From: Clostridia bacterium
GTDB taxonomy: Bacteria > Bacillota > Clostridia > Oscillospirales > Acutalibacteraceae
Assembly: GCA_017433225.1 (NCBI GenBank)
Contig: JAFRHS010000029.1
Coordinates: forward strand, 1 to 64,000
Direction of reading: 5' to 3'
Length of the DNA: 64,000 bases
In this document: piece by piece, positions 31,938-58,360 of the stretch
Layout of the letters: each line of letters opens with the position of its first letter
Position numbering within the stretch: the first letter of the stretch is position 1
The notes under the pieces: model-generated
What the model was told of the DNA's origin: nothing
What the model saw: only the letters and a program-made list of their open reading frames with translations
The model's database searches: none
Translations under genes and position numbers: made by a program

Positions 31938-32053
31938 GTCGGTGTCTATAGCGATGAGGGTCCACCCGTTCCCATCCCGAACACGGCAGTTAAGCTCATC
32001 AGTGCCGAAAATACTTGGGGGGCAGCCCCCTGGAAAAATAGGGCGACGCCGAC
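31938..32053 (+). rRNA. rrf: 5S ribosomal RNA, solitary copy
   Basis: About 116 bases. The ends GTCGGTGTC and GACGCCGAC pair as helix I. The internal signature CCCATCCCGAACACGG and the loop sequence GCCGAAAATACTTGG are those of bacterial 5S rRNA. No 16S or 23S gene lies within 30 kb either side in this window, so this is a stand-alone copy with its own promoter and terminator. Ends are estimated from helix I to within a few bases. Confidence 0.95.
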
Positions 32054-32056
32054 ATA

Positions 32057-55259: not shown

Positions 55260-56195
55260 TCAGGCTTCGGTAAAGAGAGGCGTCGAATAGTAGCGGTCGC
55301 CGCTGTCGGGAAGGAGTGCGACGATGACTTTGCCGGCGTTCTCCGGCTTCTTTGCCTCTTCGATGGCGGCGGAGAGAGCGGCACCGGAGGAGATGCCGAC
55401 CGAGATGCCCTCGGTCTTCGCGAGCAGTTTGGCGGCGGCGAAAGCCTCTTCGCCGGTGGCGCGGTACACTTCGTCGTAGACGGAGGTGTCGAGGGTGTCG
55501 GGGACGAACCCGGCGCCGATGCCCTGGATCTTATGGGCGCCCGCGCGGCCCTCGGACAGGACCGGGGAGTCGTCCGGCTCGACGGCGATGACCTTGACGG
55601 ACGCCTTCTGCTCCTTCAGGTATTCGCCGGTGCCCGTGACGGTGCCGCCGGTGCCGACGCCGGCAATGAAGACGTCGACCGCGCCGTCGGTGTCTTTGAA
55701 GATCTCCGGACCGGTGGTGGCTTTGTGGATGGCGGGGTTCGCCGGGTTGACGAACTGTCCGGGGATGAAGCCGCCGGGGATCTCCTGCGCCAGTTCATCC
55801 GCTTTCGCAATGGCGCCCTTCATGCCCTTCGCGCCTTCGGTCAGGACGATCTCCGCGCCGTATGCTTTGAGGATGTTGCGGCGCTCCACGCTCATGGTCT
55901 CGGGCATCGTGAAGATGGCCCGGTAGCCCTTGGCAGCCGCGATGGCGGCGAGGCCGATGCCGGTGTTGCCGGAGGTCGGCTCGATGATGACGGAACCCTC
56001 TTTCAGGAGGCCTTTCGCCTCGGCGTCTTCGATCATCGCCTTCGCGATGCGGTCCTTGACGCTTCCGGCCGGGTTGAAATATTCGAGTTTGACGAGCAGG
56101 GTGGCTTTCAGGTCCAGTTCCTTCTCGATGTTGGTCACTTCGACAAGCGGGGTGTTTCCGATGAGTTCGACCGCTCCTTGATAGATGTTTGCCAT
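55260..56195 (-). CDS. cysK: Cysteine synthase A (O-acetylserine sulfhydrylase)
   Basis: Makes cysteine from O-acetylserine and sulfide using PLP. 311 residues. The PLP lysine is in N-P-A-G-S-V-K-D-R-I (about residue 47). The substrate loop P-T-S-G-N-T-G-I-G-L and the phosphate clamp G-V-G-T-G-G-T-V-T-G-T are complete, as is the C-terminal S-S-G-A-A. It lies 60 bases downstream of metY in the same direction and so falls under the metY attenuator, though a separate promoter is possible in the gap. Confidence 0.95.
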   Translation of the reverse strand: MANIYQGAVELIGNTPLVEVTNIEKELDLKATLLVKLEYFNPAGSVKDRIAKAMIEDAEAKGLLKEGSVIIEPTSGNTGIGLAAIAAAKGYRAIFTMPETMSVERRNILKAYGAEIVLTEGAKGMKGAIAKADELAQEIPGGFIPGQFVNPANPAIHKATTGPEIFKDTDGAVDVFIAGVGTGGTVTGTGEYLKEQKASVKVIAVEPDDSPVLSEGRAGAHKIQGIGAGFVPDTLDTSVYDEVYRATGEEAFAAAKLLAKTEGISVGISSGAALSAAIEEAKKPENAGKVIVALLPDSGDRYYSTPLFTEA

Positions 56196-56230: not shown

Positions 56231-56259
56231 ATTATAACGCGTTTACCGGTGCTTTTCAG
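56231..56259 (-). promoter_or_regulatory. Possible internal cysK promoter
   Basis: CTGAAA (56,259-56,254), 17 bases, TATAAT (56,236-56,231) on the minus strand, in the metY-cysK gap. Confidence 0.5.
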
Positions 56260-57587
56260 TGTCTTTTGAAAAAGCCCTTTTTGGCCGGTGCCGCTTCTTC
56301 CTTCGGTTGGATGGCCGCGAAGCCCTGTTCGAGGTCCGCGATGATGTCATCGATGTGCTCGGTGCCGATGGAGAGGCGGATGGTGCTCTGATGGATGTCC
56401 TGATCGTTCAGTTCCTCTTCAGTCAGCTGGGAATGGGTCGTGGAGGCCGGGTGGATGACCAGGCTCTTGACGTCGGCGACGTTCGCCAGCAGCGAGAAGA
56501 TAGTCAGGTTGTCGATGAACTTCCAGGCCTCGTCTTTTCCGCCCTTGATGTCAAAGGTGAAGATGGAAGCGCCGCCGTTCGGGAAGTACTTCTCGTAGAG
56601 GGCGTGCTGCGGATGGTCCGGAAGCGAGGGGTGGTTCACCTTCTCGACCAGCGGATGGTTCGCGAGGTACTCGACGACCTTTTTCGTGTTCTCCGCGTGC
56701 CGCTCCAGGCGGAGAGACAGGGTCTCCACGCCCTGGAGGAGCAGGAACGCGTTGAAGGGAGAGATGGCGGCGCCGGTATCCCGCAGGAGGATGGCACGGA
56801 TATACGTGACAAAGGCTGCGGGGCCGACTGCGTCGGCGAATGAGATGCCGTGGTAACTCGGGTTGGCATCGGCGATCTGCGGGAATTTGCCCGCGGATTT
56901 CCAGTCAAATTTGCCGGACTCGACGATGACGCCGCCGAGGGTCGTGCCGTGGCCGCCGAGGAACTTGGTGGCGGAGTGGACGACGATGTCGGCACCGTGT
57001 TCGATGGGCCGGATGAGGTACGGGGTGCCGAAGGTGTTGTCGATGACGAGCGGGATGCTGTGCGAATGGGCCAGCTCCGCGAGCGCCTCGATGTCCGGGA
57101 TGTCGGAGTTCGGGTTGCCGAGGGTCTCGATGAAGATCGCTTTCGTATTGTCTTGGATGGCGGCCTTCACTTCGTCGAGGTCATGGATGTCCACGAATGA
57201 GGTGGTGACCCCGTACTGCGGAAGCGTATGGGCCAGCAGGTTGAAGCTGCCGCCATAGATGGTCTTCTGTGCAACGATGTGTCCGCCGTTCGCGGCCAGG
57301 GCCTCGATGGCGTAGGTGATGGCTGCGGCGCCGGAGGCGACCGCCAGGGCAGCGCTGCCGCCCTCGAGCGCGGCGACGCGCTCTTCGAAGACGCCCTGGG
57401 TGGAGTTCGTCAATCGCCCATAGATGTTGCCGGGATCGGCAAGGCCGAAGCGGTCTGCCGCGTGCTGGCTGTTATGGAAGACATAAGAGGTGGTCTGGTA
57501 GATGGGGACGGCGCGGGCGTCGGTGGCGGGGTCCGCCTGCTCCTGGCCGACGTGGAGCTGCAGGGTCTCGAATTTATAGTTGCTCAT
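56256..57587 (-). CDS. metY: O-acetylhomoserine sulfhydrylase (Cys/Met PLP family)
   Basis: 443 residues from the ATG at 57,587, which has AAAAAGGAG upstream. The open frame extends another 51 codons through the leader region but lacks a start signal there. The PLP lysine is in H-S-A-T-K-F-L-G-G-H-G-T (about residue 214). The start F-E-T-L-Q-L-H-V-G-Q and the R-L-T-N-S-T substrate loop are those of O-acetylhomoserine aminocarboxypropyltransferase, which forms homocysteine, or methionine from methanethiol. The C-terminal 20 residues are a Lys/Ala tail. Expression is set by a cysteine-codon attenuator and a consensus promoter. Confidence 0.93.
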   Translation of the reverse strand: MSNYKFETLQLHVGQEQADPATDARAVPIYQTTSYVFHNSQHAADRFGLADPGNIYGRLTNSTQGVFEERVAALEGGSAALAVASGAAAITYAIEALAANGGHIVAQKTIYGGSFNLLAHTLPQYGVTTSFVDIHDLDEVKAAIQDNTKAIFIETLGNPNSDIPDIEALAELAHSHSIPLVIDNTFGTPYLIRPIEHGADIVVHSATKFLGGHGTTLGGVIVESGKFDWKSAGKFPQIADANPSYHGISFADAVGPAAFVTYIRAILLRDTGAAISPFNAFLLLQGVETLSLRLERHAENTKKVVEYLANHPLVEKVNHPSLPDHPQHALYEKYFPNGGASIFTFDIKGGKDEAWKFIDNLTIFSLLANVADVKSLVIHPASTTHSQLTEEELNDQDIHQSTIRLSIGTEHIDDIIADLEQGFAAIQPKEEAAPAKKGFFKRH

Positions 57588-57631
57588 GATGTTCTCTCCT
57601 TTTTGGAACGCGGTGTTTTGTAAAATGGTAA

Positions 57632-57722
57632 AGAAAAACCGGGGGCTCTCACAGCTCCCGGGCACAGGGTTCAGACTCAGACGCGGCTCGTCCGGCCCTC
57701 GGTCGCACAACATGCCCGGGAG
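57632..57722 (-). promoter_or_regulatory. Attenuator: mutually exclusive antiterminator and terminator
   Basis: RNA is read on the minus strand. Segment CUCCCGGGC (57,722-57,714, within leader codons 18-21) can pair perfectly with GCCCGGGAG (57,663-57,655). The latter is also the 5' arm of the terminator hairpin CCGGGAGCU...AGCCCCCGG (57,661-57,639), which is followed by UUUUUCUUU. Only one of the two structures can form. Translation of the leader through its stop would mask the first segment and let the terminator form. Confidence 0.8.
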
Positions 57723-57775
57723 TTCCGCATTCGACAACACATCGTATTCTGTTTCCAGTTATAAGCACCGAACAT
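57677..57775 (-). CDS. Cysteine-rich leader peptide of the metY-cysK operon
   Basis: A 32-codon frame begins at the ATG at 57,775, nine bases after AAAGGAG, and ends at TGA 57,679-57,677. The product starts M-F-G-A-Y-N-W-K and carries two tandem cysteine pairs, M-C-C-R-M-R at codons 12-17 and R-A-C-C-A at 20-24, all encoded by TGT. The peptide is basic and has no other recognisable role. The frame lies between a consensus promoter and an attenuator. The first Cys pair stands just upstream of the antiterminator arm, so a ribosome waiting there leaves that arm free. I read it as a cysteine-sensing leader. Confidence 0.82.
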   Translation of the reverse strand: MFGAYNWKQNTMCCRMRNSRACCATEGRTSRV

Positions 57776-57806
57776 GATGGCGGCTCCTTTCTGTTTCGTT
57801 GTGTGC

Positions 57807-57835
57807 ATTATATGCCTATTCGCCCACCGTGTCAA
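57807..57835 (-). promoter_or_regulatory. metY: Consensus promoter of metY-cysK
   Basis: TTGACA (57,835-57,830), exactly 17 bases, TATAAT (57,812-57,807) on the minus strand, both perfect. Confidence 0.92.
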
Positions 57836-57839
57836 TAGG
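57815..57839. promoter_or_regulatory. 25-bp dyad over the metY promoter, candidate Rrf2 operator
   Basis: CCTATT-N13-AATAGG covering the spacer and -35 box of the metY promoter. Same arm sequence and spacing as the dyad at 57,867-57,891. Confidence 0.7.
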
Positions 57840-57858
57840 TTTTTAAATAGTTTTTTCC

Positions 57859-57919: not shown

Positions 57920-58360
57920 ATGATCTCAACCAAAGGGCGATACGCGTTACGGGTCCTTCTGGACCTCGCGGAACACAAAGACAGCGTAAAGCCGGTCCCG
58001 CTCAAAGATGTGGCGGAGCGGCAGGAGATCTCCAAGAAATATCTTGAGATCATCGTCAAGGAACTCGTGAACGGCGGCTATGTCTCCGGCGTCAGCGGCA
58101 AGGGCGGCGGATACCGCCTCAAATGCGACCCCGAGAAAACGACCGTCGGAGAAGTCCTCGAACGCATGGAGGGCACCCTCGCCCCGGTCGCCTGTCTCAA
58201 CTGCAAGGAGCCGTACGACTGCGCGCGGCGCCCGTTCTGCAAGACCCTTCCCATGTGGAAGGAGTTCGACGCCATGGTCCACGACTTCTTTTACGGAAAA
58301 ACACTCTCGGACCTCGTCGGCACCGACCCCGAAGCCGCCGGCGATTATTATGTGATTTAA
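57920..58360 (+). CDS. Rrf2-family regulator (CymR/IscR type) with four clustered cysteines
   Basis: 146 residues with a strong site CAGGAGGGG. The winged helix M-I-S-T-K-G-R-Y-A-L-R-V-L-L-D-L-A is typical, followed by K-G-G-G-Y-R-L. Between residues about 94 and 110 are four cysteines (C-L-N-C-K-E-P-Y-D-C-A-R-R-P-F-C), more like the iron-sulfur IscR group (three Cys) than CymR of Bacillus, which lacks them. The gene is divergent from metY-cysK, and two matching dyads lie in the shared region. I infer control of sulfur assimilation, possibly sensing Fe-S status or cysteine synthase, as CymR does. Confidence 0.9.
   Translation: MISTKGRYALRVLLDLAEHKDSVKPVPLKDVAERQEISKKYLEIIVKELVNGGYVSGVSGKGGGYRLKCDPEKTTVGEVLERMEGTLAPVACLNCKEPYDCARRPFCKTLPMWKEFDAMVHDFFYGKTLSDLVGTDPEAAGDYYVI

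Follow-up and report, generated by a model that had tools for sequence, protein, structure and literature searches.

Ribosome-mediated attenuators of the trp/his type combine a leader ORF, regulatory codons, and competing antiterminator and terminator hairpins. In translational attenuators of the ermC type, a stalled ribosome frees a hidden ribosome-binding site (RBS). In Firmicutes, sulfur genes are usually regulated by T-box and S-box RNAs. Judging by the title of a 2020 report by Canestrari, the polycysteine leaders of mycobacteria and other Actinobacteria are reportedly leaderless short ORFs. As far as the available parts of the sources tell, His leader peptides have been reported in Firmicutes (PMC2965389), and the uORFC-8-2 motif before cysS in Rhodobacterales consists of an upstream ORF with two tandem Cys codons and a terminator (PMC8632094). 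Likewise in partial view of the sources, the polycysteine leaders of mycobacteria place Cys codons before cys genes without an intrinsic terminator (PMC1262725), and Cys-codon leaders before cys genes are described in Actinobacteria (PMC13236596).

Here we analysed the region upstream of metY-cysK in a 64,000-nucleotide stretch of DNA (the window) from a Clostridia bacterium. Comparison with relatives and RNA folding suggest that its leader is probably a member of a family of ribosome-mediated attenuators, likely sensing methionine and cysteine supply. It resembles the trp/his-type systems in its leader ORF, regulatory codons, and competing antiterminator and terminator, but has no run of a single codon; instead it carries an invariant CGA-AUG-Y core and what appear to be control codons for two amino acids. 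Tandem Cys codons and a terminator are shared with uORFC-8-2, which belongs to another class and another gene and for which the accessible part of the paper mentions no CGA-AUG core. A second group of relatives, in which the leader seems to pair with the RBS of metY (RBS-type leaders), would be similar in mechanism to ermC-type attenuators, although the signal here would be amino acid supply, whereas that of ermC is a drug. These leaders also resemble the polycysteine leaders, as partially seen in the sources, in having Cys codons and no intrinsic terminator. In contrast to leaderless short ORFs, the Clostridia leaders are led by a Shine-Dalgarno (SD) sequence (AAAGGAG, 57790-57784 in the window), appear to pair with the RBS, and keep one Met codon fixed. 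Unlike T-box and S-box RNAs, the window leader matched no Rfam covariance model; the best hit was a CRISPR repeat model (E 0.32, below its cut-off).

Neither the CGA-AUG core nor leaders of metY or metQ in Clostridia are described in the available parts of the related leader papers that we compared, and the titles and abstract beginnings of the open-access papers covered revealed no such leader before metY or metQ. If our reading is correct, the family constitutes a widespread and apparently undescribed control of Met and Cys genes in Clostridia that needs neither riboswitch nor T-box. It would also be a natural example of a sensor made of one codon pair rather than a codon run. A single sensing core would feed two outputs, and the Cys codons would lie on whichever side suits the output in question. 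The role of the CGA wobble pair in bacterial decoding would become directly testable.

The metY leader in the window

The features of the locus are collected in Table 1. The promoter proposed in the original prediction matches the consensus at 12/12 positions (57835-57807), with ~ 0.3 promoter-like sites expected by chance in shuffles of the 1-kb region, and the proposed ribosome binding site and 32-codon frame with two TGT-TGT pairs are present. The CGA-ATG core (57733-57728) did not figure in that prediction. As had also been claimed, the arm 57722-57714 is perfectly complementary to 57663-57655, which is shared with the 5′ half of the terminator; counting G-U pairs, the helix reaches 12 bp. 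The predicted terminator hairpin (- 14.3 kcal/mol, z - 3.1) is directly followed by TTTTTC. Folding indicated that this terminator with its U run and the antiterminator (- 34.7 kcal/mol, z - 3.05) are mutually exclusive, in line with the earlier proposal. An automated scan reported no terminator at the window leader, presumably because a mismatch interrupts the stem. The fold stability of the whole 201-nt leader was unremarkable (z - 0.55), and the evidence beyond chance therefore rests on relatives. The complementarity between CCGCGTTC and GAATGCGG is possibly a remnant of an RBS-pairing output. Elsewhere, the 64-kb window contains a 5S rRNA gene (31938-32054, plus strand) and no tRNA gene.

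Table 1. Features of the metY-cysK leader region, in window coordinates.
Feature	Position	Strand	Basis
Promoter TTGACA-17 nt-TATAAT	57807..57835	-	12/12 consensus positions
Leader Shine-Dalgarno AAAGGAG	57784..57790	-	Sequence
Leader ORF, 32 codons and stop TGA (start ATG at 57775, stop 57679-57677); encoded peptide MFGAYNWKQNTMCCRMRNSRACCATEGRTSRV	57677..57775	-	Sequence; same-genus orthologs L003, L004
First Cys-Cys pair TGT-TGT, codons 13-14, directly 5′ of the core	57734..57739	-	Sequence; Cys placement statistics
Core CGA-ATG-Y, here CGAATGC: codons 15-16 and first base of codon 17	57727..57733	-	Conservation in relatives
Second Cys-Cys pair TGT-TGT, codons 22-23	57707..57712	-	Kept in L003 and L004
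Predicted antiterminator 5′ arm (arm 2) CTCCCGGGCATG	57711..57722	-	Folding; near-fixed distance to CGA in 19 leaders
Predicted antiterminator 3′ arm = terminator 5′ arm (arm 3)	57655..57666	-	Folding
Predicted intrinsic terminator: stem 57661-57653 / 57647-57639, T run 57638-57634	57634..57661	-	Folding, - 14.3 kcal/mol, z - 3.1
CCGCGTTC immediately 5′ of the metY SD	57606..57613	-	Complementary to GAATGCGG (57732-57725), 8 pairs including one G-U; fold of the entire leader
metY, O-acetylhomoserine/O-acetylserine sulfhydrylase family	56256..57587	-	TIGR01326, 619 bits vs cut-off 495
cysK, cysteine synthase A	55260..56195	-	TIGR01139, 436 bits vs cut-off 351

Conservation of the core in relatives

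We looked for metY orthologs in three sets of genomes (60 relatives, 295 from the order and 292 from the class) and analysed 201 of 204 upstream regions; L251, L255 and L299 were left out, and one leaderless place (L069 = L259) was counted twice. An SD-led upstream ORF with in-frame CGA-ATG was present in 124/201 regions, so the leader frame, whose conservation the original prediction had named as a check, is kept in relatives; three of the 124 (L058, L061, L302) look like chance ORFs. Arg-Met with a different Arg codon occurred in four further regions of the 201, which by eye were not leader-like; one of these, L266, has CGAATG elsewhere too. The other 73/201 had neither a CGA-ATG nor an Arg-Met leader, and in many of those inspected by eye, metY follows an iscU-like gene or has a short 5′ UTR. 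The leader is absent from L002, of the same genus and with a 98% identical metY; there the promoter and the metY RBS stand together, which may reflect a deletion or an assembly error. L024 has a near-miss of the core, CGG-ATG. L033 carries CGA-AGG where L032, of one genus with it, has CGA-ATG; the arms are kept in both, and the difference may be a natural variant or a sequence error.

The choice of Arg codon was examined with order-wide patterns in the 295 genomes. When it was left open (N-F/Y-R-x-G-[MGN]-ATG), 46/50 matches had CGA and the remainder had CGG (2), AGG (1) or AGC (1), against four matches of a reversed-pattern control. The pattern NFR-x-G-CGA continued to ATG in 46/94 matches, with 43 matches in its reversed control; those 46 places are shared with the open-Arg search. 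Among the other Arg codons within the same leaders, CGA accounted for 59/390, and at position - 3 all six Arg codons were found.

The base 3′ of CGAATG was a pyrimidine in 122/124 leaders (T 101, C 21), a count that excludes L123 and L186; the two purines belong to L058 and L061. With a pyrimidine at this place, the + 1 frame has a Cys codon, UGY, overlapping AUG. The second base after CGAATG was never C in 108 leaders, a set that includes L123 and L186, in both of which the search pattern itself prescribed the T after ATG. One region, L284, contains two successive short frames, ~ 280 and ~ 180 nt upstream of metY, both ending in RRMPTS* and each with CGA-ATG.

Two putative outputs

Nineteen leaders, the window's included, share the terminator layout of core, CCCGG/CTCGG arm, and second GC arm, and most have a T run. 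They were chosen by eye, leaving out L033 (CGAAGG) and including the pattern matches L123 and L186. In all 19, a distance of 12-13 nt separates the CCCGG or CTCGG of arm 2 from the C of CGA. Those with a family assignment come from eight families, two of which (f61 and f76) are outside the window's order.

In the larger, RBS-type group, only 50-112 nt separate the core from metY. This gap was found in 166 leaders, 156 of them distinct, and at least 67 of the 156 are among the pattern matches listed. In 154 of the 156, we compared pairing of the leader with its own RBS and with that of other species. The expected number of leader:RBS pairs was 9.42 for own and 4.69 for swapped RBS, and the own RBS paired better in 110/154 leaders (Wilcoxon p 6e-14). 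A swap test on duplex energy agreed (mean z - 0.49, SE 0.10, 27% in the best decile; 156 leaders), and the longest gapless duplex gave a weak signal (mean 6.68 vs 6.02 in shuffles; 176 leaders). Compensating pairs were ATGTGTACC/GGTACACAT (L145, L213), GTGATTA/TAATCAC (L028), and GAATGTGCC/GGTACATTC (L186, also a terminator leader). One core appears to serve two outputs, either a terminator or pairing with the downstream RBS.

Ribosome position and the predicted switch

The ribosome was masked codon by codon, and we computed the probability for which arm pairs with arm 3. The entry edge of the ribosome was set at + 11 from the P-site base, approximately where the stem begins in frameshift sites; + 14 was also run. 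With the edge at + 11, the antiterminator probability in the window leader fell from 1.0 with CGA in the P site to 0.0 with AUG in the P site. The mean of the 19 terminator leaders dropped from 0.64 when CGA occupied the A site to 0.50 one codon further on, with AUG in the A site, and to 0.10 once AUG was in the P site; it stayed at 0.00-0.04 up to codon + 10 and reached 0.42 at + 11. An edge at + 14 moved the switch one codon earlier, to CGA in the A site. The original prediction placed the stalled ribosome at codons 13-14, with its edge at about 57,727. Such a ribosome does leave the arm free; the folds place the switch further on, at either CGA or AUG according to the edge assumed.

In free RNA, folding favoured the antiterminator in 12/19 terminator leaders, so termination would need a well-timed ribosome on about codons + 1 to + 10. 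The terminator was favoured at most ribosome positions in 6/19 (L037, L038, L043, L048, L123, L249). L048 and L062 gave opposite answers depending on the stretch taken, and L003 showed little antiterminator in the ribosome-masked folds. For RBS-type leaders, the predicted freedom of the SD was 0.49 with the ribosome at CGA, 0.46 at codon - 6, and 0.32 in free RNA.

Gene association and spread

Scanning GTDB contigs with a DNA pattern that takes no account of genes returned at least 120 stretches, of which 119 were parsed. Among the matches listed, 89/119 had metY within 2.2 kb. Of the other 30 listed, 17 had a MetQ match within 3.5 kb, six end within 300 nt, and L133, L160, L214 and L230 look like chance matches. 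The MetQ-type neighbours pass the Pfam NlpA model, and the NCBIfam MetQ, MetN and MetI models matched below their cut-offs. The record titles among the matches listed name Oscillospiraceae, Ruminococcaceae, Lachnospiraceae, Christensenella, other Clostridia, and a few organisms from other phyla.

The MetQ-like lipoprotein of L146 (5844-6695, minus strand) has halves that are possibly swapped, with residues 29-166 aligning to Pfam NlpA positions 97-234 in addition to a second matching stretch. Downstream of the leader in L164 (3-1652, minus strand) lies a gene for a 550-residue protein with a family-3 solute-binding domain and a MetQ/NlpA domain. In L178 (671-1789), a Treponema sp. record, the leader precedes a URO-D-type protein, and the ORF after it resembles a solute-binding protein by eye; the leader may have been transferred to this other phylum, or the record may have been misbinned.

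Cys and Met codons

Cys made up 8.0% of 3206 non-motif leader codons vs 1.1% of 3160 codons in window genes, a sevenfold enrichment, and Met outside the core was not enriched (2.4% vs 2.3%). L257 and L261 have leaders packed with both Cys and Met codons. The placement of Cys differed between the output types: in terminator leaders it occupied 24/76 codons at - 4 to - 1 and 5/91 at + 2 to + 6, and in RBS-type leaders 11/356 and 105/247, respectively (Fisher 1.9e-14, not corrected for kinship). In the RBS leaders that are pattern matches, at least 67, Cys was found at 0/268 codons before the core, where upstream codons were fixed by the pattern, and at 89/194 after it. If Cys codons act as stall sites, they must precede the core in terminator leaders and may follow it in RBS leaders, and the observed placement agrees with this prediction of ribosome geometry. 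Those Cys codons that lie 3′ of the core may owe their presence in part to RNA pairing. Codons of the pathway's own amino acids, i.e., enriched Cys and one fixed Met, thus appear to stand at the putative stall site, as in known attenuators.

These data bear directly on the original model of a pure Cys-tRNA attenuator, under which cysteine would be sensed by the Cys pairs and CGA-ATG would be either incidental or an arm spacer. The enrichment of Cys and the output-dependent flip of its placement speak for that model, as does Cys-Cys directly 5′ of the core in seven leaders (L001, L003, L004, L032, L037, L038, L240). However, in 4/19 terminator leaders (L031, L048, L123, L186) the four codons preceding the core include no Cys, and at least 23/89 RBS-type leaders have none in codons - 4 to + 6 while keeping CGA-ATG. 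The Cys codons are not conserved at the stall site in relatives, as they would be in a strictly cysteine-specific attenuator. Strict conservation of the Cys pairs fails as well. The second pair is kept in L003 and L004, of the same genus, and absent in L005 and L031. Moreover, were the codon incidental, it would not be CGA in 46/50 matches, and the MetQ-type transporter genes have the same leader. Sensing of cysteine alone is a reading to which we give a minor chance; what endures of the original model is a leader under coding selection, hairpins that exclude each other in the folds, and a part for the Cys codons.

Coding selection and the encoded peptide

In 63 NFR-type leaders, the entropy at codon positions 1, 2 and 3 was 0.86, 0.58 and 1.58. 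The group was picked by codons - 5 to - 3, and positions - 9 to - 6, - 2 and - 1 are unbiased. Pair differences were 1391 synonymous vs 183 nonsynonymous at Arg - 7, and 1251 vs 123 at Gly - 1. This pattern of substitution indicates that NFR-type leaders are under coding selection. In the 45 non-NFR leaders the three codon positions were alike (1.80, 1.76, 1.91), and hence the entropy test says nothing for that group. An SD and a start codon in the window, together with the synonymous-biased change in 63 relatives, are consistent with the translated leader of a ribosome-mediated attenuator.

Selection on the peptide could also mean that a chain ending in ..NFRxGRM, or RM alone, makes the ribosome stall when a sulfur metabolite is sensed. 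The residues R-x-N-F-R-x-G before RM are indeed conserved as amino acids in the 63 leaders, with many synonymous changes, and TGA directly follows ATG in 33/125 leaders, so that the step under regulation could be release at RM. On the other hand, 45/108 leaders fall outside the NFR group, most of them with unlike residues (LLSLN, TGTD, QLND, MCC), and a signal carried by the peptide gives no reason for the Arg codon to be fixed as CGA. We regard nascent-peptide arrest as unlikely.

Proposed mechanism

In the attenuator that we favour, the signal would be charged Met-tRNA and Cys-tRNA. A ribosome on the Cys codons, on CGA, or with AUG waiting in the A site would leave arm 2 free to pair with arm 3; the terminator could not form, and metY-cysK would be transcribed. 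After methionine has been incorporated and AUG has moved into the P site, the ribosome would cover arm 2 for about ten codons and arm 3 would join the terminator. The stall that leaves arm 2 free in the window leader would, in RBS-type relatives, expose the metY RBS.

The Arg tRNAs of the window genome have anticodons ACG, CCG, CCT and TCT among the 30/37 tRNA loci scanned, and tRNA-Arg(TCG) was not seen among them. CGA is presumably read by tRNA-Arg(ACG) deaminated to inosine-34. In yeast, CGA in the P site, read by an I-A wobble, is associated with slow elongation and with + 1 shifting that varies with the tRNAs for the next codon, according to the accessible part of the report (PMC6301793). 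By analogy with this precedent, we propose a P-site effect of CGA in bacteria: CGA would be fixed for its weak I-A pair, which in the P site would make the reading of AUG slow and sensitive to Met-tRNA, so that one Met codon could suffice. In its fullest form, CGA-AUG-Y would be a codon-pair sensor, in which the wobble on CGA in the P site makes one AUG an extremely sensitive gauge of Met-tRNA, the overlapping + 1-frame UGY is fixed by competition between Met-tRNA and Cys-tRNA, and the seven-base word plugs into a terminator or an RBS hairpin to run sulfur amino acid genes in a large part of Clostridia. We put this fuller version forward tentatively, as a possibility.

A programmed + 1 frameshift making a conserved product was considered and rejected, since the + 1 and - 1 frames past the core are scattered in length and have no common end; competition in the + 1 frame alone, without a product, may occur.

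As the seven bases CGAAUGY are nearly fixed, they might instead be an RNA or DNA site of a binding protein, kept in frame by ancestry. The coding-type variation upstream and the geometry-dependent Cys placement point to translation, which makes such a site very improbable. It is known that 2-thiocytidine 32 (s2C32) on tRNA-Arg restricts the reading of CGA, and CGA could in principle report sulfur through this modification of tRNA-Arg(ICG). C32 is present in the tRNA-Arg(ACG) of the window genome, and the TtcA family model was matched in 59/60 relatives, none above the family cut-off. We rejected this explanation, which has hardly any likelihood left: the TtcA-type matches are almost universal, whether or not the leader is present, and the effect would have the wrong sign, because ample sulfur would cause the stall that is predicted to open the genes. 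Least credible is a relic leader with metY controlled by the divergent Rrf2 regulator alone, since the core is kept across many families and two outputs, even though the Rrf2 gene adjoins and L002 manages without a leader.

The adjoining Rrf2-family gene

The divergent Rrf2-family regulator gene lies at 57920-58360 (Pfam PF02082), and the CymR and IscR models match it below their cut-offs. Beside it, an inverted repeat, CCTATT..AATAGG, spans the - 35 region of the leader promoter (57815-57839). The gene and the repeat likely provide a second control, at the level of transcription, next to the attenuator. Similar inverted repeats were seen by eye in the promoters of several relatives.
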